Below, in pieces: positions 54,505 to 64,000 of a stretch of DNA of 64,000 bases. The notes below the pieces were generated by a model. That model was not told the origin of the DNA, did no database searches, and saw nothing but the letters and a program-made list of their open reading frames with translations. Numbering within the stretch: the first letter of the stretch is position 1; every line of letters starts with the position of its first letter. A program made the position numbers and the translations under genes. Source of the stretch: Bacteroides helcogenes P 36-108 (lineage in GTDB: Bacteria > Bacteroidota > Bacteroidia > Bacteroidales > Bacteroidaceae); the NCBI RefSeq assembly GCF_000186225.1, contig NC_014933.1, forward strand, positions 1,240,001-1,304,000, given 5' to 3'.

Positions 54505-55506
54505 ATGAGAAGTACATTCAAGACGGTCTTCTATGTAAATGGAAGCAAGGAGAAAAACGGTATTGTCCCCATCATGGGACGAGTAACAATCAACGGAACT
54601 ATCGCACAGTTCAGTTGCAAACAGACCATCTCAAAGGACATTTGGGATGCCAAAGCTAACAAGGCAAAGGGAAAGAGCAAGGAGGCAGTGACCGTAAACT
54701 TTGCCCTTGAGAACATCAAGGCGCAGATAGCCAAGCACTATCAGCGTATTTCAGACCGTGAGGCTTTCGTGACAGCCGAAATGGTACGCAATGCCTATCA
54801 GGGCATCGGTATGGAATACGAGACACTGCTCAGAGCCTTTGACAAGGAGAACGAGGCATTTGCCAAACGTGTGGGCAAAGACTGTGCACAACGCACCTAT
54901 CAGAAATACGTCATAGTAAGAAGATACGTTGCCGACTTCATAAGGAAGCAGTATAAGCGGTCAGATATATCCATGAACGAGCTTACCGAGGACTTCATTC
55001 GAGACTACTGTCTGTATCTGAGAAATGATGTAGGACTTGCACAGTCCACCGTATGGATATACTCCATACCTTTGAAGCATATCGTTACCTCTGCCCACTA
55101 CAACGGAAAGATACCGAGAAACCCTTTCGCACAGTATTACGTCAATCCCGACCACAAGGAACGTGGATTTCTGACAGAGGACGAGATGAAAGCCATGTCT
55201 GCAATCGAATTGGACAATCCGAACTTTGCATTTGCAAGAGACCTGTTCATCTTCGGTTGCTGGACGGGTATCTCGTTTATAGACATCAAGAACCTTACAA
55301 CGGACAACCTCGTTGAGATGAACGGCACGAATTGGATTATATCCAAAAGACAGAAGACCAACGTACCGTTTCAGATTATGCTCTCAGCAAATGACCGTTA
55401 TCAAAGGACGTTTATAGATTCCAATCCGATTTTACTTGAGAAATTCTGTCATCGTGTTGGAATATACGTTGCCGTAGTGCTCCACATTATATACCGTGGC
55501 ATGTGA
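54505..55506 (+). pseudogene. Bacteroides-type tyrosine recombinase, C-terminally truncated
   Basis: 333 aa. The arm-binding domain (MRSTFKTVFYVNG, SCKQTISKDIWD), the SAM-like core-binding domain (to ~210) and the start of the catalytic domain (LTEDEMKAM, FGCWTGISFIDI, SKRQKTNVPFQI with the catalytic Lys) are present. The H-x-x-R, H/W and Tyr nucleophile that should follow are missing: after about residue 310 the frame runs antisense through the 3' end of the legumain-like gene. It cannot recombine. It is the left scar of an element adjoining the lipoprotein operon. Confidence 0.82.
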
Positions 55507-57519
55507 GCCTATTGTTTGACGAGCGAGTTTGTAGTACAAATTTCGCAATGTAATACCTGGGTCCTCATCTATCGCTTCCTGAAATGCCCTCGTAAAACCG
55601 TTGGAGAGCCATATTCCCATTTCCGGGTCTTTCATGTCTGCCTTGGATGACTCGTAGGCATTGGCCGCTGTGATGAACAGTACGCCCGGAATGCCCGTAC
55701 ATGCCTCACCGATGGAACCGGAATAGCAGGCATCCATTGCAAATAAAATTTTCCGGTATCGCTGTTCCTCGTTCATTGTCTGCAAGATGTCACGTACCTG
55801 CGAACCATAGACCGTTTCATGCGAACCCCATGCCAGTCTGTTCTGATTTCCATGACCGCACCAAAAGACGACTACATTATCGTTTTTTCCGGAGGAAATG
55901 ACATGAGGAAGCCGGGATGAAGAATGTCCCATGAGGATGTCTTGCAAGTCGGCAATCGTCACATCATTAATCTTATAGTCCACTTCCATGTTCTGATAGA
56001 GGTTTTCCCCGTCAGGTTTCACCTTGACCACACCGGGATAAAGATTGTGCGTATCATATGCAATGTTGTCGGCGATAATCAGGACGATATGTTCGTCGTC
56101 ATACCCGTGACGTTTCAGAATCTGGTACATAGCCATCGCATCCGCCTGATGACGGTAGTTTGCCCACGTGTCCGACGTACCGATTACTACCGCCCAGTTG
56201 TCTTTATGTTCCCCATAATTGAAATCTTCCTGCCGTTGGTTGAACTGCTGGAAGTGTTCCGCTTGGGTCTGCCAAGTTTGCAGCGTGGAGGTAGTCCGCC
56301 CGCTTCCGTCTGTGGAGAGATATTCGAGCGTATGATATTCACCGTCTTTCAACGTCCAATGACAATAGGAAGAGTTCAGCACGCTGGCATGGCGCTTCTG
56401 GTCAAATGTCCAGTCTCCAGTTGCCCCGCTCAAATCAGGGGAACCACCCGATTGCAAACGAACCAATGCCGCCTGCATGTCGCTTGCCATCCAACTGCGG
56501 TTCCAACTATCCCGTCCGTCCACGATATTCTTGATTGCCCCGTTCAAGTCAGCATCCCCGAAAGAAGCGAGCGCATATCCCAATAAGGTAATGGCATCAA
56601 AGAGATGCGCTTCGCCTGCCGTCGGAGAGTCGCCAAACTTGAAACGGTAAGCATTGATAAACCCAGAAGCCGGGTCGGCACTTGGAGATATACCTTCGTA
56701 GATGTTTTTAATTTTGCCAGTCAAGGATTTCGAGTGCGCCACATCGGAGCAATACACCACGGGATAACATTCTTTGTCCAACTTGTCGTAGATTTCATCA
56801 AACTGTCGGAAATCGGATGCCGTCGATGGGGCGAAGAGCAATGCCCCGCTACGGAATTGATTATCGGCAAAATGGGCGACAGCCTCCTTCAACTCTTTAT
56901 CGTTCCTATAAATCACCACATCATCCACCTGCAAACCTAATTCAACGGCTTGGTAGGCGAACCAATCGCTGAAACTCTTTCCGTAATCGTCATCCGAAGT
57001 AAGCAGGCTGACACTATGCATTTCCGATACAGCCATTTGCATCAGCAAAATCTCACATTGCGTAAGGTCACTTTGCGCCAAGTTCCAGACATACTCCTTT
57101 CCGGCAAAGACACGTTGAAACTCTGTCGAGGTTGCCAGTGGAAGAATCAAGGTCTTTTGCCCTTCGGCACAAGCAATAGCCGCCATAGTCGCATTCTTTG
57201 AACTGTAAGGGCCTATGATAGCCGTATAGGAATCATCAGAAGCTACCCGTGAGAGGTATTCGGCCAAGTCTGCATCCTCCTCGTTCTTCAATTCTACTTT
57301 TATGTCGGTAATTTTAGGAAGTCCGACTTGTGCCTGCCGGAAGTTCTCCAAAGCCCAGTCAACGGTACGGTTCCAGTCGTTCCCCGAAGAAAGGGGCATG
57401 ATGACCGATATCTTGTAAGAAACCTTTTCGGATTGGGGTACATCGGAATCGTCATCGTTACAACCGGTGACAAACCACGGAATTATACACAGAAGAATTT
57501 GCCATACTTTATTTCTCAT
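55432..57519 (-). CDS. Lipoprotein with periplasmic-binding-like domain fused to a legumain-type (C13) cysteine protease
   Basis: 695 aa. Lipobox FVTGC followed by acidic NDDDSD, a surface-export-like signal. Residues ~30-395 resemble a type I periplasmic (Leu/Ile/Val) binding protein (AIIGPYSSKNATMAAIACAEG). From ~440 the sequence follows legumain/GPI8 throughout: WAVVIGTSDTWANYRHQADA, HIVLIIADNIAYDTHN, YPGVV, catalytic His556 in WCGHGN, catalytic Cys598 in DACYSGS, TAANAYESSKAD, and GSHATVYNVEHYGN. Start 57519 has a strong AGGAGGT RBS; it overlaps the upstream gene by 11 bases. Last gene of the MACPF operon. Confidence 0.85.
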   Translation of the reverse strand: MRNKVWQILLCIIPWFVTGCNDDDSDVPQSEKVSYKISVIMPLSSGNDWNRTVDWALENFRQAQVGLPKITDIKVELKNEEDADLAEYLSRVASDDSYTAIIGPYSSKNATMAAIACAEGQKTLILPLATSTEFQRVFAGKEYVWNLAQSDLTQCEILLMQMAVSEMHSVSLLTSDDDYGKSFSDWFAYQAVELGLQVDDVVIYRNDKELKEAVAHFADNQFRSGALLFAPSTASDFRQFDEIYDKLDKECYPVVYCSDVAHSKSLTGKIKNIYEGISPSADPASGFINAYRFKFGDSPTAGEAHLFDAITLLGYALASFGDADLNGAIKNIVDGRDSWNRSWMASDMQAALVRLQSGGSPDLSGATGDWTFDQKRHASVLNSSYCHWTLKDGEYHTLEYLSTDGSGRTTSTLQTWQTQAEHFQQFNQRQEDFNYGEHKDNWAVVIGTSDTWANYRHQADAMAMYQILKRHGYDDEHIVLIIADNIAYDTHNLYPGVVKVKPDGENLYQNMEVDYKINDVTIADLQDILMGHSSSRLPHVISSGKNDNVVVFWCGHGNQNRLAWGSHETVYGSQVRDILQTMNEEQRYRKILFAMDACYSGSIGEACTGIPGVLFITAANAYESSKADMKDPEMGIWLSNGFTRAFQEAIDEDPGITLRNLYYKLARQTIGSHATVYNVEHYGNVYSNTMTEFLK

Positions 57520-58552
57520 AATACCTCCTTTCTGCCTCCAAAGCCTCTTGATAAGAGGTATCGTAAGCTTTCTGCCAATAATCCTGACTGTCGTAATAAT
57601 CTTCCCAAGAGAGACATTTGTCGAAGAAAGCGGCATTGACGGTTACATCAGCAAATCCTTCTGCCAAACCTCCTTCCCAATGCTGCTCTTTTGTGTTTCC
57701 GGCAAGCCAGTCGTTCAAGAACGTGTTAAGCATCCGGTCTATCTTCAACGTCAAAGAGAACGGGGTACGGGTAGAATATGCGGAACAATCCACATCCATC
57801 CCGGCAATCAGCATCCCCGAAAACATATTCTCTCTTACATACTTATACACACCACTGTTCGATCCTCCGGCAAGTGGAAAAACAAACGCATTCCACGGCA
57901 ATTCCTTGGTCAGCAAATATGCCTTTTCAGGACTATTGAAACCGATGGCATCGTCTGCCAAATAACTCACATCGGCGGTTCGCCCCTCCTCCTTCGCATA
58001 GCCTTGTAGAAAACCGTCGATGGCAGGTTGCAGCGTGGCATCACTGGGGCAGGCGGCAAGCACGAACGCCTGCGGACATTCCGCCGCCATTCTGCCACAG
58101 AGGAAAGAAGCTCCGTAACGCCGGATGTTGAAAGTGAACACGTTTCCCGGCAAGTCCTTTCTTTCGCTTTCAAAGAGCAGAATGCTTTTCGATGCTTTCA
58201 ACTCGGAAAAGTTACCGTCTAAAAGTGACTCGTATTCGCTGGAAGCCAGTACGAGCAACGACTGTTTGCTATCAGTATTTTCGTCGCACCAATCGCTTAC
58301 TGCCGTTTGTGCCTCCAGCTTGTCTTTGGGAGAGATGATGGAGAGCGTCACTTCATTCTTGGTGGCAAACTCCATAATGCCGTCGAAAATCAAATCGTTA
58401 TAGCCATTGTCACCCATGCCACCGGTTGAAGTAATAAGGGTGAGACACGGCAAATTGTTTGCCGGAAATTCATCGGCATCGTGCGAACAAGATACGAGCA
58501 TCAGCCCCAGACCGATTACGGCAATTATGCTTTGGCAGCGGAATATTCTCAT
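57509..58552 (-). CDS. BMP/PnrA-like substrate-binding lipoprotein
   Basis: 347 aa. Lipobox LMLVSC then SHDADE. GGMGDNGYNDLIFDGIM matches the G-x-G-D-x-x-[FY]-N-D opening of basic membrane (BMP/PnrA) proteins, and PLAGGSNSGVYKYVRE with AGMDVDCSAY their hinge regions. BMP proteins bind nucleosides or other small ligands, but no ABC transporter is adjacent, so it is probably a receptor rather than a transport component. It overlaps the upstream MACPF gene by four bases. Confidence 0.78.
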   Translation of the reverse strand: MRIFRCQSIIAVIGLGLMLVSCSHDADEFPANNLPCLTLITSTGGMGDNGYNDLIFDGIMEFATKNEVTLSIISPKDKLEAQTAVSDWCDENTDSKQSLLVLASSEYESLLDGNFSELKASKSILLFESERKDLPGNVFTFNIRRYGASFLCGRMAAECPQAFVLAACPSDATLQPAIDGFLQGYAKEEGRTADVSYLADDAIGFNSPEKAYLLTKELPWNAFVFPLAGGSNSGVYKYVRENMFSGMLIAGMDVDCSAYSTRTPFSLTLKIDRMLNTFLNDWLAGNTKEQHWEGGLAEGFADVTVNAAFFDKCLSWEDYYDSQDYWQKAYDTSYQEALEAERRYYEK

Positions 58553-59811
58553 TTCAAATATACTTTAACAATATAGTCTTTCAATTTTTCCCCTTTATTG
58601 GCATCCATTCTACTTACGATATTCCATAGTGGGATTACAGTAAAATCCACCATGGCAAGGTCTGTGTCATTGGCTGTCTGCGGGCTTTCAAAACACGAAT
58701 ACCATTTTTCAAATAGTGTAGGGTCAGTAAGAGGTTCTCCTTTGGAGGCGTACTCTTTCATCTGCCGATTGAGGATTGTCCCTGTATCACCACCACCTGT
58801 CACGACAAAGTTCCCTTGGAAATCTTTTTTTATTTCTGTCCAGGTCTTTTCATCAACCGTTGTGGAGGATGATTTGAAAAACAAAATCTTAACATTAATG
58901 GTGGTTACCACTTTCTCTATTTCCGTTTTGATGTCTTGGCTTACAGTGAAATAATAATCCAGTTTACCGCCTAAATAGGAACTTGTAACCACATGCGTTC
59001 CGAATTTTCGCACAATATCCTCTACTTTATCGTTCTTTACTGACTTACGAAACGACGAGGTCGTACACCATTTCAACACATCTCGGTCGGTCAGACTTAC
59101 GTCATTACCGAAGTAGGAGAGCTTCACGATGCGGGCATCGCGACACCATACATATAGTCTATCCTTTTGCTCGTTGATTTGCTTATTATATTCCACCGAA
59201 ACTTTTGCCTTCGCAACTTTTATATCAACTTCACCCGACACTTTTCCACCGATTTCCGACTGAAGCTGCGTACTGCTTTGTGCTTTCTCGAAGCACATAT
59301 TTGTGCTGGCATGAGCATCTATCCGAATGGCTTCGCTTCCATAATCATTCTTCAATGCTGCTGCATCGAATATCTGCCCTCTTATTCCTGCTATATCGGC
59401 ATAATCTTCGTTCAAGTCATACCCCCAACCCAAGCCGCAATCTTTAGCCAGGTTTATGATTGGACTACCATTGTTGTCATTATCGCTTTGATTGATGGTT
59501 ACAGATACTTTACTGTGACTATTTCTTATCACGATTACCCCCTCCCGTGAAACGTCATCGTCATTCTGTTGAATATAGATGGGCAAAATACCATCACCGC
59601 AACCTTCGGTAGAGGATAGTGTAATCCATTCTGCATCACACTCGGCTTGCCACGATTCATCCGCTTTGAAGCGCAGCGTGTCAGTGTGGCACGCTGCACT
59701 CAAATTCATCGTTGGCGATGTTTCTAATGTTACATGGCTTTCGTTTTCTGAATTGCATGCTATCAGTGACAATACACCTATTAATGTGAAAACCGCGTAC
59801 TCAATTTTCAT
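58549..59811 (-). CDS. BACON-MACPF lipoprotein (third in operon)
   Basis: 420 aa. Lipobox LSLIAC. A BACON domain (WQAECDAEWITLSSTEG..., residues ~45-115) precedes a MACPF/CDC pore-forming domain with the signature FGTHVVTSSYLGG near residue 270 (F/Y-G-T-H-x7-G-G). Two amphipathic segments flank the signature as expected for membrane-inserting hairpins, but this was not computed. MACPF proteins of Bacteroides (BSAPs) kill related strains. It overlaps the MACPF gene before it by ATGA and the BMP-like gene after it by ATGA. Confidence 0.85.
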   Translation of the reverse strand: MKIEYAVFTLIGVLSLIACNSENESHVTLETSPTMNLSAACHTDTLRFKADESWQAECDAEWITLSSTEGCGDGILPIYIQQNDDDVSREGVIVIRNSHSKVSVTINQSDNDNNGSPIINLAKDCGLGWGYDLNEDYADIAGIRGQIFDAAALKNDYGSEAIRIDAHASTNMCFEKAQSSTQLQSEIGGKVSGEVDIKVAKAKVSVEYNKQINEQKDRLYVWCRDARIVKLSYFGNDVSLTDRDVLKWCTTSSFRKSVKNDKVEDIVRKFGTHVVTSSYLGGKLDYYFTVSQDIKTEIEKVVTTINVKILFFKSSSTTVDEKTWTEIKKDFQGNFVVTGGGDTGTILNRQMKEYASKGEPLTDPTLFEKWYSCFESPQTANDTDLAMVDFTVIPLWNIVSRMDANKGEKLKDYIVKVYLK

Positions 59812-62189
59812 TGCTTGATAATCTTAGATGGATCTTCTATTGTAACCGTACCACAACTATTGTACACTTCGCCTTTTCCTATATGTTCCAAGGCTAAACC
59901 TCCCTTTTGTACAGTTAGTCTTTCAATGTTACGACCGATAAAAACATTTCCGCATTTATTGTCTTCCATCTGAGTACATGTTCCAATCGCAGCAGCATCA
60001 GGGAAGGTGGTTTTTGCAATTACAGTTCCTCCTATAATGTCAATATTTCCACAAGATCTACCACTTTTTGAGGTTCCAATTGCAGATCCATTTTTTGACC
60101 ATATATTGATATTCCCATTTTTAATAACAATGTTTCCGCATTCCGGTACATCACCGGCTCCAATACCGGCACCATACTCTGAACGAATGGTAAGTGCTCC
60201 AGTGCCACTGATAGTGAGTGTTCCTTCACGACCGGGAGAGATACCCGAGTAATTAGGTTCCCACTGAGCATCTATAATGTTATTTGATCCCGTAGTCAAA
60301 ATAATGTTATTATCTCCCTGACAAACCAAATTGCCTCCTACGACATGTAAATTATCAAAGGAAACCTCAAGTCCTTTTTTCAAAACTATTCTGTGAGTCG
60401 TTTCTCCGGTCAATGTGCAGTTTTGCGTCACTACTGGATTATCCCAATTTGTCACATCAATAGTCAAGTCTGAGAAAGAGACCTCTCGATAAAGAGAAGT
60501 CACACCCTTGGGGTATATGGTGATATTTCCTGTGGCATCCACATACAATTCGGTAATGACTCCGTTATCAAGTTTTTCAAATACTTCAGTAGCAAATGTT
60601 CCGTCATTTTTCCATTGGAATTTGCAAGGCTTGCGTGTATCGCTGCCCACAAAGAATCCGCGCTTTCTGCCTACTTTGCCTTTTTCGCCAGAGTAGATTA
60701 CGGTGGAGTATTCCGATTCAGAGAGTTCTTTTATTATAGTACGGCATGCAATCACTTCCACATCAATTTCCGGAATATACGCTTTACATTCCATTCCCGT
60801 ATTTTCTGTTAAGTTGAAGCCTTTGAGTATATATAGGTCGGGGCCTTTATAGTCTTTATCCGATGCTGAATACCGTTCTTTCTGATAAGTACCTACCATA
60901 TACTCACGCAATGCATTACGCAGTTCTGCTGTCGGCATCAAGTCGTAAATAGGTATCACTTCCACATCAATAAGTGCCAGATTATCTCCTTTACGAATGC
61001 CGGATACCCATTCTTCCATCTTCGTTTTGTCACGTACTGTTTTTTGGAATGATTGGAAGGTAGCACCCGGAGCAATCGTATAGACATTGTTTCCTCCGTA
61101 GGTTTTCAATGAAATAGTGGTATTGGAAGCAATGGCTTTTTCTTGATTGCTCATCTCAAAATTGCCATTAACATTGACCACCTTACTGCTCAAATTGAGG
61201 GCGGCATGAATATCGCTTTCAGAGGTATTATCGGTTACTTTCAACTGCATGGAAAGTTTCAATTCGCCTCCCAATGAGCCTTGTGTAATCACGTGCGTAC
61301 CATATTCAGTCAATAACATTTGGTACAAGCTTTCCTTGTCGGAAAAGCTGTTGTCCGACAGAGTTTGAACGAGTTCATTGAAGTCACCTTGAAAGACGTT
61401 AATGCCGTTTTCGGCAAAATATCTCAATGTGCCCGGGCGTAGATGTCGTGACTTTACGGTGTGCTGTATTTCTTGAAGTGCATACGAAAATTGGTCATCG
61501 CCACTCGCTTTCTTGTCATAACCGCCTTCAACTGACAATTTAAAAGCAGAGACCCCTACTTCAATACCGGCGTTGATGGAGAGTTGGTTTGACACAGCAG
61601 AGCTCGTGTTGCCCGTGACATGCTCCGTCCTTGAAAAATATCGTTCCTCATCGGCCATTGCATCGGCTTCGCCATATTTTTGGAGTGCATTGACCAGCTT
61701 TCGGAAGTTAATCGGGCTTTGAGGCTTTACACAATATTTCGATTCGCTACTTACATCAAACACATCCAAGGTGTAGCCCACACCGGAAGTTAGGTTAAGA
61801 TCACCGGATGACAAGATGGTTCCATTATCCTGATCGTTTATTTTGCCGAGCTGGTGCAGTGTAAATTCTTGCTTTTTCCCATTGCCATATTCTACGGTCA
61901 TGATGCCGCTTCGATCCTCATCCTTACCATTGGTTTCGACAAACAGACAAACCTTTTCGCCAGCCTCTCCGACATCATTCATCGGACCAGCCCACTCTGG
62001 ACTTTCTGTCACAGACCATGTTTGGTCTCCATTAACCTCAATATTGTAGAAAGCGTTCAGACGCTTCAGTTCTAAGACTGAAGGCTTATCGGGTATAGGG
62101 TCAGTATTTTCCAAAGAATCGTCTTTGCAACTTATGAACATGGACATTATAGCCATGAATATCAGTATGATATTATATTTTTTAAGCAT
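59808..62189 (-). CDS. BACON-MACPF lipoprotein with C-terminal beta-helix-like region (second in operon)
   Basis: 793 aa, the largest of the set. Lipobox MFISC then KDDSLE. BACON at ~40-115, MACPF at ~125-450 with YGTHVITQGSLGG near 296. The C-terminal ~330 residues carry repeats such as PECGNIVIKNGNINIW, SGRSCGNIDIIGGTVIA and KCGNVFIG with intervening GAGIGA and SAIGTS, like right-handed beta-helix adhesin repeats. This part probably recognises a surface glycan or protein on the target. Seven bases separate it from the preceding MACPF gene. Confidence 0.85.
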   Translation of the reverse strand: MLKKYNIILIFMAIMSMFISCKDDSLENTDPIPDKPSVLELKRLNAFYNIEVNGDQTWSVTESPEWAGPMNDVGEAGEKVCLFVETNGKDEDRSGIMTVEYGNGKKQEFTLHQLGKINDQDNGTILSSGDLNLTSGVGYTLDVFDVSSESKYCVKPQSPINFRKLVNALQKYGEADAMADEERYFSRTEHVTGNTSSAVSNQLSINAGIEVGVSAFKLSVEGGYDKKASGDDQFSYALQEIQHTVKSRHLRPGTLRYFAENGINVFQGDFNELVQTLSDNSFSDKESLYQMLLTEYGTHVITQGSLGGELKLSMQLKVTDNTSESDIHAALNLSSKVVNVNGNFEMSNQEKAIASNTTISLKTYGGNNVYTIAPGATFQSFQKTVRDKTKMEEWVSGIRKGDNLALIDVEVIPIYDLMPTAELRNALREYMVGTYQKERYSASDKDYKGPDLYILKGFNLTENTGMECKAYIPEIDVEVIACRTIIKELSESEYSTVIYSGEKGKVGRKRGFFVGSDTRKPCKFQWKNDGTFATEVFEKLDNGVITELYVDATGNITIYPKGVTSLYREVSFSDLTIDVTNWDNPVVTQNCTLTGETTHRIVLKKGLEVSFDNLHVVGGNLVCQGDNNIILTTGSNNIIDAQWEPNYSGISPGREGTLTISGTGALTIRSEYGAGIGAGDVPECGNIVIKNGNINIWSKNGSAIGTSKSGRSCGNIDIIGGTVIAKTTFPDAAAIGTCTQMEDNKCGNVFIGRNIERLTVQKGGLALEHIGKGEVYNSCGTVTIEDPSKIIKQ

Positions 62190-62196
62190 AAGGCTA

Positions 62197-63483
62197 TTAC
62201 TTTAAATAGTTGGCAGAACGTGTTACTGGTATTTCACTGTAGTACATCCTTTCAGTATAGTTGTTAATTTTTATTTGTTCAGTTAAAGGGAAAAGTTTCG
62301 AGATGGGGACTAACTGGAACGACAAGAGCTCGTACTTTTTTTCGTCTCGAAGTGTGGCAAGCCACTTGTCTGTAGTGGTTTCGGTGATGGTGTCGGCTTC
62401 CACTGCCATGGAGAGCATGATGGCATCGCCACCTTTAACAGTGAATTTCTCTATTGTTTCACTACTGAGTTTTTTCAAATCATCCTTATAATTCACATCA
62501 CCTTGAAGCTTGAATTTTTCAGAAAATCCTAATTTGATGGCTCCCTCTACATTCAGGCTGTTGTTATTGTTTTCAACAACAGATGAGTAGAAATAATCGT
62601 AACATCCACCGAGATTAGCAAGAACCACTAAATGCGTGCCGTAGCGTTCTATCAGATTACGTATAGATTCGTCAGAAGCTCCGGCATCAATTACTTTCTT
62701 GCGCTCAGCCGCAAAATCCACAGTAAATAGGTCTTCGCTTTGGACTTCGGAATAGTCAAGTTGGTTAAGATATACCACACACTGCTGGTATCGACTCCTA
62801 ATCCGTGAAAATATTCTCTTTGAATTGCTGATGGCAGATTTACCGAAGGATGCCTGAAGATCGAGGCTGAACGTATTGTATTTGCCATTGATTCCCAACT
62901 TCCCACTCATGTCGTCTGATAAATCCGATCCGCTTTCACCATAATAATAGTCGATGAGAGTAGATTGATTGTCTTCTATCACATAGAGTGGATTTATCGT
63001 ATCGTAATTTAGTAGCTTCTGAGCATTGAAGATTTGGTCTTTCAATCCTCGGAGATCCATATAGGTTCTCACATCAAAGCTCCACCCTGCGGCATATGTA
63101 CGTTGAAGTGATGACGGGCTCTTATTGGCAGACTGTACTACTGCTATCGAACGACTTTTGCCGTTGGAATATTTGATTTTGACTGTTCCCTCACGCAAAG
63201 AAGCACTGTTACTCTCCACATATATCTTTACTTTGTCATCCGCAGAACCTTCCGTTTTCACCGGAGTTACCCATGCAGGGGATTCAGCAACACGCCATGA
63301 GGCAGATGCCATGTTCTCAAGTGTATGGATGTCACAGTTTCCGTTAATTACAAGCCGACTTTCTTGTTTGTCAGACATGGATTCATCATCGTTTTTTGAA
63401 CAAGATGACAAATTCATAGTCATACTCAACAACAATATTGGTAATATTATCATTGGATTTTGAATTATTCTTTTCTCTTTCAT
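62197..63483 (-). CDS. BACON-MACPF lipoprotein (first MACPF in operon)
   Basis: 428 aa. Lipobox MNLSSC then SKNDDE. BACON at ~45-118 (SWRVAESPAWVTPVKTEG), MACPF from ~125 with YGTHLVVLANLGG near residue 280. It is diverged from the other two, so the three are old paralogues rather than recent copies. It lies 22 bp downstream of the small lipoprotein gene. Like its neighbours it should sit in the outer membrane, probably facing out. Confidence 0.85.
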   Translation of the reverse strand: MKEKRIIQNPMIILPILLLSMTMNLSSCSKNDDESMSDKQESRLVINGNCDIHTLENMASASWRVAESPAWVTPVKTEGSADDKVKIYVESNSASLREGTVKIKYSNGKSRSIAVVQSANKSPSSLQRTYAAGWSFDVRTYMDLRGLKDQIFNAQKLLNYDTINPLYVIEDNQSTLIDYYYGESGSDLSDDMSGKLGINGKYNTFSLDLQASFGKSAISNSKRIFSRIRSRYQQCVVYLNQLDYSEVQSEDLFTVDFAAERKKVIDAGASDESIRNLIERYGTHLVVLANLGGCYDYFYSSVVENNNNSLNVEGAIKLGFSEKFKLQGDVNYKDDLKKLSSETIEKFTVKGGDAIMLSMAVEADTITETTTDKWLATLRDEKKYELLSFQLVPISKLFPLTEQIKINNYTERMYYSEIPVTRSANYLK

Positions 63484-63505
63484 TTTTGTCGTTTTGAGGT
63501 TATCA

Positions 63506-64000
63506 CTATTCTTCCGGAATAAACGAGAAAGACAAGAGGCGGTGTTCGCCTTTTATATATTTCTCCATGCCTGTGCTATTCATTTCATCCTTGCCTGATT
63601 TACTTCCTATTAGACCATAATCAAGATCTATTGTACCATCCTTAAGTATTCCAGATACCTCTGCATGAACTGACTGTTCCAACAAATAAGTGGTGTTAGC
63701 GTCAATAGCGGGAGAGTTGGCTTTAGGCTTGGCAATCACTTTGCAGAGGAATTCATCCGGTTCTGCCGAATAGGGGATGTCTTTTTCGTACATCCAATCT
63801 TGTGTGAGGGTAATTGTTTTCTCTCCCGTCTCAGAGGTATAAGTCACCTCGATGTCGAAAAACTTGTACCAGTCATTAGAGAGGGAGACCGAAAACGTTG
63901 TCTTGATGGTGGTAAGTTCGTTAGTCACTTCCGGCTCATCGTCACTATCACCGCATGCAGTCAGGTTAATGCAACCGGCTATCATAGCCAGACATAAAAT
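63506..64000 (-). CDS. Small lipoprotein, 5' end beyond the window
   Basis: At least 164 codons. The frame is open to the window edge and reads ILCLAMIAGCINLTACGDSDDE, a lipoprotein signal whose initiator lies outside; the internal Met at 63985 is therefore not the start. The mature part is beta-rich (SLSNDWYKFFDIEVTYTSETG, then KGEHRLLSFSFIPEE). I recognise no family. It is upstream of and presumably cotranscribed with the MACPF genes, and the operon promoter lies further right. Confidence 0.7.
   Translation of the reverse strand: MLCLAMIAGCINLTACGDSDDEPEVTNELTTIKTTFSVSLSNDWYKFFDIEVTYTSETGEKTITLTQDWMYEKDIPYSAEPDEFLCKVIAKPKANSPAIDANTTYLLEQSVHAEVSGILKDGTIDLDYGLIGSKSGKDEMNSTGMEKYIKGEHRLLSFSFIPEE

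Follow-up and report, generated by a model that had tools for sequence, protein, structure and literature searches.

A six-gene Bacteroides operon joins three MACPF proteins to a legumain-type protease and two binding domains: a putative protease-activated pore system

Analysis of a 64,000-nucleotide stretch of the genome of Bacteroides helcogenes P 36-108, a member of the Bacteroidaceae, which are frequent in animal guts (hereafter the window), revealed six minus-strand genes which, judged from their sequences, are one tight, co-inherited operon conserved in relatives, and which constitute a real, conserved and apparently undescribed system. Three of the genes encode predicted lipoproteins with BACON and MACPF domains, and two others a Bmp-type binding protein and a fusion of an ANF_receptor domain with a legumain-type C13 protease. 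We predict that the protease cuts the MACPF proteins after an asparagine in the linker behind BACON and thereby frees what is likely a three-subunit pore directed against rival bacteria, a reading to which we assign an even chance.

Layout and domain content of the operon

The original prediction described six tightly packed minus-strand genes with overlaps or short gaps, and the ORFs bear this out, with intergenic gaps of 22, 7, -4, -4 and -11 bases in order from gene 1 to gene 6 (Table 1). Its count of six genes stands, but the first gene runs past the window end to 64030, and the most likely start of the C13 gene is 57519 rather than 57636; the numbering of His556 and Cys598 then agrees with that of the original prediction.

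Table 1. Genes and predicted functional residues of the operon, in window coordinates
Feature	Position	Strand	Basis
Gene 1: small predicted lipoprotein, 174 aa	63506..64000 in window; start at 64030, outside	minus	ORF
Gene 2: BACON + MACPF predicted lipoprotein, 428 aa, trio position 1	62197..63483	minus	Pfam
Gene 3: BACON + MACPF + C-terminal beta-rich domain, predicted lipoprotein, 793 aa, trio position 2	59808..62189	minus	Pfam
Gene 4: BACON + MACPF predicted lipoprotein, 420 aa, trio position 3	58549..59811	minus	Pfam
Gene 5: Bmp/PnrA-type binding protein, predicted lipoprotein, 347 aa	57509..58552	minus	PF02608
Gene 6: ANF_receptor + C13 legumain-type fusion, predicted lipoprotein, 695 aa	55432..57519	minus	Pfam
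Gene 6 His556, predicted catalytic	55852..55854	minus	Alignment; inside legumain-aligned segment
Gene 6 Cys598, predicted catalytic	55726..55728	minus	Alignment of 192 proteins
Gene 3 Asn122, candidate legumain cut site, BACON-MACPF linker	61824..61826	minus	Conservation, model
Gene 4 Asn114, candidate linker cut site	59470..59472	minus	Orthologue alignment

The predicted MACPF signature [FY]-G-T-H-x7-G-G could be read in all three MACPF genes, and Pfam agrees, each also carrying a BACON domain. Against the PF01823 cut-off of 21.5 bits, MACPF scored 37.0 bits in gene 2 (E 5e-9), 64.4 bits in gene 3 (E 2.1e-17) and 31.3 bits in gene 4 (E 2.8e-7); BACON was found in gene 2 (E 1.5e-7), gene 4 (E 6.7e-10) and gene 3, there at E 6.6e-5 and 23.2 bits, which is under the 25-bit cut-off. 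Gene 5 belongs to the Bmp/PnrA family (PF02608, E 6.8e-8, 32.3 bits, cut-off 24.1), and gene 6 combines Peptidase_C13 (PF01650, E 4e-52, 177.8 bits, cut-off 22.8) with ANF_receptor (E 1.6e-9). PF01650 has gene 6 as its single match in the whole genome, and PF01823 has five matches, three of them in this operon. The legumain-like His/Cys domain claimed for the last gene was corroborated by this C13 match and by legumain matches in PDB, and HMM and fold searches, which could have failed the MACPF and C13 assignments, upheld both.

A lipobox cysteine had been proposed for all six proteins, and reading the sequences by eye confirmed in 6/6 a signal that ends in Cys and is followed by acidic residues; the cysteine is also present in 190/192 aligned ANF-C13 proteins. 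We take acidic residues behind the lipobox Cys to be a surface-export signal. This reading is also backed by the available part of PMC12853789, and all six predicted lipoproteins are probably located at the surface. The operon is flanked by glycan-use genes (Pfam), GH43 on one side and a hybrid two-component regulator and GH31 on the other, and a truncated integrase lies at its 3' end. A TTTG-n17-22-TAnnTTTG pair was found neither within 800 bases upstream of gene 1 nor inside the operon.

The protease core, its cargo and a candidate cleavage site

The neighbourhood survey comprised 71 loci with ANF-C13, to which 11 more distant C13 places were added. In the 71 loci Bmp immediately preceded ANF-C13 in 66 of 73 cases, and in 58/61 when ORFs having at least 5 kb upstream were considered. 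MACPF genes occurred upstream of C13 in 25/71 loci, on the same strand in all 25, and 22 of these contained exactly three MACPF genes, the other three loci reaching contig ends. The remaining 46 loci consisted of the Bmp + C13 pair or a C13 gene with no detectable MACPF, some with other lipoprotein cargo; among the 61 C13 ORFs that could be followed upstream for 5 kb or more, 35 likewise had no detectable MACPF. The 11 distant places contained no MACPF (0/11), Bmp in 6/11 and U4, a different cargo, in 1/11, which counts against a universal Bmp + C13 core.

This repeated co-occurrence led us to reject a chance neighbourhood. The predicted make-up of three MACPF genes, C13 and sensors held, but the conserved core is the Bmp + ANF-C13 pair, and the co-conservation of C13 and MACPF expected across genomes was observed in one direction: among the matches listed, gene-3-type MACPFs came with ANF-C13, whereas many C13 loci lack a detectable MACPF (46/71 and 11/11), so that the dependence runs one way. 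Since most C13 loci are without detectable MACPF, there must be further duties or substrates for the protease. In a sample of 399 genomes of the family, MACPF-covering gene-3 matches, among those listed, fell in 15 genomes, and ANF-C13 was present in 15/15; in a quick tree, 26/27 C13 genes of MACPF loci lay inside one group of 34 with a support of 100. Comparing locus L010 with the window revealed 83% identity for C13 and 72% for Bmp but only 21-24% for the MACPF proteins, by which measure whole MACPF trios have been exchanged behind a similar Bmp-C13 core.

The cargo U4 adjoins the core in 10/71 loci. Its model (pLDDT 76) gave no MACPF and no convincing match among the 50 best Foldseek matches, and the idea of U4 as a hidden MACPF was rejected. 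A tblastn search for C13 on plasmids gave no match, and DNA of the operon region matched plasmids once, over 375 bases at 78% in the integrase part. Outside the order, a search for ANF-C13 in 296 genomes of the phylum returned, besides the window, only weak matches to the binding-domain part.

Gene 6, with 407 homologues, resembles legumain and GPI8 (family C13) in its catalytic and Y-R-H-Q-A-D segments. Its matches in PDB were legumains (best E 3.8e-34, residues 441-690), with GPI transamidases and peptide asparaginyl ligases also included; it differs from legumain in being a bacterial predicted lipoprotein with an N-terminal receptor-type domain. Legumain has a C-terminal prodomain, for which gene 6 leaves no room because the C13 domain ends the protein. 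His556 and Cys598 are each conserved in 191/192 aligned proteins, with L040, which also lacks the catalytic His, as the single exception for Cys598. Arg456 is present in 192/192, and the adjacent His457 is Phe in 12/72 locus proteins. Arg456 and the other residues of the Y-R-H-Q-A-D segment, common to gene 6 and legumain, presumably form the S1 pocket, which is consistent with predicted cutting after Asn (or Asp).

A candidate site for such cleavage was found at +9, i.e. nine residues behind the last Gln of BACON, counting only proteins with an anchorable BACON. Asn occupied this position in 16/16 anchored gene-3-type subunits (Fisher p 4e-13) and in 15/21 anchored U4 cargo proteins (p 1e-8), compared with 1/40 control BACONs, p values that serve as a guide only because the compared proteins are related. 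Among anchored gene 3 homologues it was found in 78/80, and among six gene-3-type subunits without an anchor, assessed by eye, Asn stood at +9 in three and at +7 in three. Asn122 of gene 3 itself is N in 44/48 aligned rows and lies in the model in a coil between strand 106-113 and helix 128-134. A linker Asn is present in part of the trio subunits. Asn114 of gene 4 is N in 4/4 orthologues, and Asn occurs at +6 behind BACON in 5/5 window-type position-3 proteins; in type-I clade B an anchorable BACON was recognized in 2/17 subunits, neither with the +9 Asn, and gene 2 of the window has only a non-conserved Asn in its linker. Position-1 MACPF linkers contain an Asn within 16 residues in 20/21 anchored proteins versus 21/40 controls, at varying places, and we do not lean on it because it has no fixed place. 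For the Asn at +9, a structural role or inheritance together with the BACON module is conceivable; the residue also hints at a link between the protease and its putative MACPF and U4 substrates, and it lends indirect support to the original proposal that the protease activates or trims the pore formers.

The swapping of cargo bears on the first alternative, in which Bmp + ANF-C13 is a general surface sensing or processing device and the trio a three-subunit toxin that has only operon and regulation in common with it and is not cut by C13. Such a device would suit the 46/71 loci and 11/11 distant places without detectable MACPF, as well as the wholesale exchange of cargo, with U4 beside the core in 10/71 and 1/11 places. 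We nevertheless regard it as unlikely, because, among the matches listed, every genome with a gene-3-type MACPF also had ANF-C13 (15/15 genomes), and the linker Asn is common to MACPF and U4 cargo but nearly absent from control BACONs.

The MACPF trio

Phylogenetic analysis grouped the proteins of each of the two trio types into three clades, all six of them supported at 99-100%, and all 22 complete operons contain one member of each clade of their own type. Because this one-per-clade rule holds in 22 operons, the trio looks like an obligate three-subunit assembly; the three pore-former genes of the original prediction are present, but as an apparent set rather than three side by side. Gene 2 falls in a supported clade of five window-type position-1 proteins (support 100/99). 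A joint position-1 clade of the two trio types, weakly supported in a quick tree, appeared in 10% of bootstrap trees in a careful tree and is not supported there; we therefore claim only three clades per trio type, and gene order and size are the grounds for equating subunits of the two types.

PF01823 was matched at E <=0.01 by 56/66 trio proteins. Gene 3, the sole window MACPF modelled, has 118 homologues, some with Beta_helix_3, and its AlphaFold2 model (pLDDT 88.3) retrieved perforin, C6/C9 and 3kk7 MACPF folds in Foldseek, with the activated CDCL long protein at rank 29. A MACPF-U1 fusion considered for L084/L085, whose third MACPF has 1186 aa, was discarded since no U1 match was obtained at E 1e-4. 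Of eight orphan MACPF loci, four were placed in the tree, where they form a separate clade; L136 and L141 (no trio-profile match) and L138 and L139 (too few columns) were left out.

These data also weigh on the possibility that the three MACPFs are separate BSAP-like toxins with different receptors, an arsenal rather than one pore. BSAPs are described in the available part of PMC12853789 as toxins with their own receptor each, and the three window proteins do have different lengths and C-terminal regions. One would expect the number of toxins in an arsenal to vary, however, so the strict number three counts against it, as do the one-per-clade composition in 22/22 complete operons and the separate position of the 4/8 placeable orphan MACPFs, and we consider this explanation improbable.

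Comparison with known systems and proposed mechanism

In agreement with the original prediction, no description of this make-up was found in the literature searched on MACPF, BACON and C13/legumain in Bacteroidales, which comprised papers available in part and others judged by title or the start of the abstract. Bacterial gasdermin operons likewise place a protease beside a pore-former, but they serve intracellular suicide defence with an unrelated pore-former and other proteases. BSAPs are known to act singly as toxins, whereas here a set of three is encoded with a protease and two binding domains. The two have in common that they are Bacteroidales MACPF lipoproteins, a minority of BSAPs carrying an N-terminal BACON (35/214 representatives, according to the available part of PMC12853789). 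No cut-off of the curated BSAP models was reached by the operon proteins, the only score being that of BSAP5a for gene 4 (38.1 bits, cut-off 500).

Activation by a protease at the surface has precedents in Bacteroidales: C11 enzymes act in this way on the toxins BcpT and CDCL, as reported in the available parts of PMC9308784 and PMC11169675. CDCL, a two-component complement-like toxin of Bacteroidota, resembles the present system in that different subunits join in one pore, a cysteine protease activates it on a cell surface and an upstream surface lipoprotein gene of its operon gives immunity (PMC11169675, in part). It differs in having two subunits, short and long, versus three MACPFs here, and in being activated by C11 on the target cell, C11 not being named among the operon genes in the available text (PMC11169675); the present protease is a C13 enzyme that carries a fused binding domain and whose gene belongs to the operon. 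BcpT is antibacterial, likely a surface lipoprotein and activated by the surface C11 fragipain/doripain, but C11 cuts it after Arg, and the part of PMC9308784 available neither describes BcpT as a MACPF nor mentions a dedicated sensor.

In the mechanism we favour, the ANF domain and Bmp would bind a ligand and gate the C13 protease, which would cut the MACPF proteins after the conserved Asn behind BACON. The cleaved proteins would lose BACON and with it their lipid tether, and the freed subunits may assemble as a hetero-oligomeric three-part pore in rival bacterial cells, while the small lipoprotein of gene 1 may serve in self-protection. Gene 1, whose part inside the window matched no Pfam family, is one of 21 ORFs matched by the profile of U2, a small-lipoprotein family (U2/g1) that recurs in some operons; it is a possible immunity or accessory protein, and our best guess for self-protection because of its place in the operon and the analogy with the CDCL immunity lipoprotein.

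The pore could instead be aimed at the producer itself (gasdermin-like suicide), at grazing protists or host cells, or at food cells. The sequence gives no target, the outer membrane of the producer itself would be the seat of all six predicted lipoproteins, and the operon, at whose 3' end there is a truncated integrase, has glycan-use genes on both sides. Against this, the BSAP and CDCL toxins described in the available parts of PMC12853789 and PMC11169675 act on related bacteria, and the swapping of entire trios is in keeping with competition among strains, so a target other than rival bacteria seems improbable. Finally, it is very improbable that C13 works as a transamidase or ligase, in the manner of GPI8 or the peptide ligases of plants, and attaches the lipoproteins to some other molecule of the surface, since despite the GPI transamidases and peptide asparaginyl ligases among its PDB matches the best of these is a legumain, and we know of no acceptor or attachment signal in this system.

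Returning to the protease-released pore, a more tentative extension, which we think somewhat less probable than the pore itself, is a complement-like cascade at the surface, with the ligand-gated legumain and Bmp acting as convertase, the three-MACPF set as a swappable attack complex cut at Asn, and other cargo with the same site fired by the same core. The available parts of the cited papers describe MACPF toxins that have a single receptor apiece, or two-component CDC-like toxins whose activation is the work of C11 proteases. If the proposed mechanism is true, bacteria would own a sensing protease reserved for the multi-subunit perforin-type pore beside which it is encoded, as in complement, with trigger, protease site and three-subunit pore together in one operon. 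The otherwise unexplained BACON domain of some MACPF toxins would then act as a tether that can be cut, and the system would show how bacteria of the gut could replace their weapons, exchanging entire pore sets while the control module stays constant.

The operon, its protease and its distribution

The six tightly packed minus-strand genes described in the original prediction are present as claimed, with junctions of 22, 7, -4, -4 and -11 bases, and Pfam supported every domain it had named (see table), while matching no family in gene 1. In the 4.0-Mb genome PF01650 gave a single match, gene 6, and PF01823 gave five, three of them in the operon. A further adjacent MACPF gene pair in this genome (locus L009, genome positions 2934536-2937134) follows a gene for a phage tail tape-measure protein (PHROG, 2.5e-38), in a prophage-like region that also has a phage-type integrase (7.3e-45). 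The operon is flanked by GH43 and truncated integrase genes on one side and by hybrid two-component regulator and GH31 genes on the other. The tyrosine integrase, of which only N-terminal domains are left, abuts the operon 3' end; a short integrase-like ORF, recognised by eye and giving no PHROG match, occurs at locus L008. These pieces hint that mobile elements were once active in this neighbourhood.

Features of the operon and of the surveyed loci
Feature	Location	Description
Gene 1	start at 64030	begins beyond the window
Gene 2		MACPF (Pfam, E 5e-9) plus BACON
Gene 3		MACPF (Pfam, E 2.1e-17) plus BACON slightly below cut-off
Gene 4		MACPF (Pfam, E 2.8e-7) plus BACON
Gene 5		Bmp (Pfam, E 6.8e-8)
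Gene 6		C13 (Pfam, E 4e-52); receptor-type ligand-binding domain (E 1.6e-9)
Gene 3, C-terminal part	window 59835-60545	beta-rich
Integrase	window 54505-55506	tyrosine type
Integrase-like ORF	L008 11580-12152
MACPF gene pair	L009 6536-9134
Integrase	L009 12803-13969	phage type
C13 gene remnant	L015 10001-10697	Bacteroides rodentium JCM 16496
ANF-C13 gene	L040 14343-16556
Third MACPF genes	L084 4643-8200; L085 8084-11641	1186 aa
U4 examples	L095 8037-10289; nine other loci; L215

Residues 441-690 of gene 6, the C13 domain, aligned with chains of legumain at E values as low as 3.8e-34; GPI transamidase and plant ligases were matched as well. Arg456 is kept in 192/192 aligned proteins and the catalytic His556 and Cys598 in 191/192, a conservation that points to an active enzyme; the legumain-type segments suggest specificity for Asn. 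At locus L040, an ANF-C13 protein lacking both catalytic residues, and without Bmp, adjoins a 944-aa gene.

At a threshold of E 1e-3, gene 6 has 407 homologues; each of the 120 listed combines C13 with one of two binding-domain families. With one genome per species, the order sample had matches in 14 of its 393 genomes (7 including the C13 part) and the family sample in 71 of its 399, fragments among them; the distribution is patchy, since only 2 of the 34 listed family-sample genomes of the window's own genus match. Screening 296 phylum genomes revealed no C13 part other than that of the window.

The neighbourhood survey covered 71 loci, after exclusion of L036 and L013 as duplicates and of L015 and L016 as fragments. 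Profile searching in six frames identified 73 ANF-C13 ORFs in them, of which 66 have Bmp immediately before them (58/61 where at least 5 kb lies upstream). Loci L086 and L110 carry tandem Bmp-C13 pairs, two per operon, one C13 protein of L086 belonging to a distant group of the C13 tree. In B. rodentium, a 697-base remnant from the 3' end of the C13 gene (96% identity with the window) sits immediately downstream of rpoC, the remaining operon missing.

The predicted co-conservation of C13 and MACPF genes held in one direction. When the gene-3 alignment was run against the 399 family genomes, the listed matches that spanned much of the MACPF region came from 15 genomes, all 15 with an ANF-C13 match; PF01823 gave 20 matches in 11 of 121 family genomes, 12 of these matches inside ANF-C13 operons. 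Conversely, MACPF genes, always upstream and on the same strand, accompany C13 in only 25 of the 71 loci, and in none of the 11 longer of 23 family-listing places outside the 71, which are distant relatives and have Bmp in six cases and U4, a lipoprotein family, in one.

A three-part MACPF set and an exchangeable cargo

Exactly three MACPF genes are present in 22 of the 25 MACPF loci; the three with fewer complete genes (L011, L083 and L086) all reach contig ends. In trees of the MACPF parts, two trio types account for the 66 proteins of the 22 operons: the window type with 5 operons and type I with 17. Each type splits into three clades, and support is ≥100/99 for all six in the careful tree (63 rows, omitting L091, which is nearly identical to L090). 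Each operon contributes one protein to every clade of its type; among type-I operons the two later genes vary in order, but the set is unchanged. Pfam recognised MACPF in 56 of the 66 proteins and BACON in 37, ten being assigned as MACPF by an iterated profile alone. Because the number and the one-per-clade rule hold, the trio has the pattern of an obligate three-part set. Many other proteins of the family share the gene 3 C-terminal domain, which occurs there in open frames of ~340 to 4400 codons and is possibly a binding domain common to non-MACPF surface proteins; the unusually long third MACPF proteins of L084 and L085 have two matches to it.

At locus L010, identity to the window is 83% for the C13 protein, which stands directly beside the window's in the quick C13 tree, and 72% for Bmp, but just 21-24% for the trio, which is of type I; the trio therefore moves as a unit, with the Bmp-C13 core remaining in place. 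In the same tree, 26 of 27 C13 genes of MACPF loci lie within one group of 34 (support 100). U4 comprises predicted lipoproteins of ~750 aa that adjoin the core in 10 of 71 loci, never with MACPF; seven of the ten have it on the upstream side and three (L097, L099 and L109) on the downstream side; no Pfam domain was found in the one member checked, nor a recognisable fold or PDB fold match. Two genomes (G566 and G620) each combine a MACPF system with a separate U4 system. Among the 25 MACPF loci, lipoproteins of family U1 occur in 17 and gene-1-like proteins (U2) in 5.

Asparagine in the BACON-MACPF linker

A candidate cut site emerged from the window-type alignment, which has a conserved Asn in the BACON-MACPF loop of genes 3 and 4, but not of gene 2. 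Among gene-3 homologues, 44 of 48 rows keep Asn122, with acidic residues before it and mostly Gly or Ala after it, and in the gene 3 model (pLDDT 88.3) the site lies in coil where confidence dips locally. Counted from the last Gln of BACON in profile-anchored proteins only, position +9 is Asn in each of the 16 anchored gene-3-type subunits (12 of type I, 4 of the window type), and in 78 of 80 anchored gene 3 homologues (118 in all); by eye, six unanchored gene-3-type subunits have it at +9 (three) or +7 (three). Behind a BACON-like domain, U4 homologues have it at +9 in 15 of 21 anchored proteins (86 in all), and their alignment shows N in 35 of 49 rows. Only 1 of 40 control BACONs from other proteins of the family (BACON matches with loci, excluding the window operon's three and an incomplete one) has it, several controls coming from one tandem-BACON protein and none from BACON-MACPF proteins outside C13 operons, which would be a closer control. 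As these counts are over related proteins, Fisher values are only a guide. The linker Asn is not uniform across subunits: window-type position-3 proteins have it at +6 (5/5), whereas position-1 proteins (20/21, at varying places) and type-I clade B (anchorable BACON in just 2 of 17 subunits, +9 Asn in neither) count against one rule.

Known systems and proposed working

C11 and C13 proteases belong to one clan. The same bacteria offer a precedent: BcpT is activated by C11 proteases at the surface (PMC9308784), as are the CDCL two-component toxins, in whose operon, too, an upstream gene encodes a surface lipoprotein, one protecting the producer (PMC11169675). BSAPs belong to the MACPF lipoproteins, and some of them carry BACON domains, described as having no known function (PMC12853789). 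Neither a C13 protease with MACPF proteins nor a three-part MACPF set was found in the literature searched, which took in a minority of subscription papers and preprints. We know of no described counterpart to a sensor-protease core with exchangeable cargo.

Most likely, in the sequence of steps that we infer from ligand through killing, the ANF and Bmp parts would sense a ligand at the surface and the C13 domain would cut the MACPF linkers after Asn, so that the MACPF proteins would shed their BACON and lipid tether and, once released, co-assemble as a mixed pore on a neighbouring cell. Since this proposed protease activation resembles that of the CDCLs, we class the operon, as a variant, with the protease-activated pore-forming systems.
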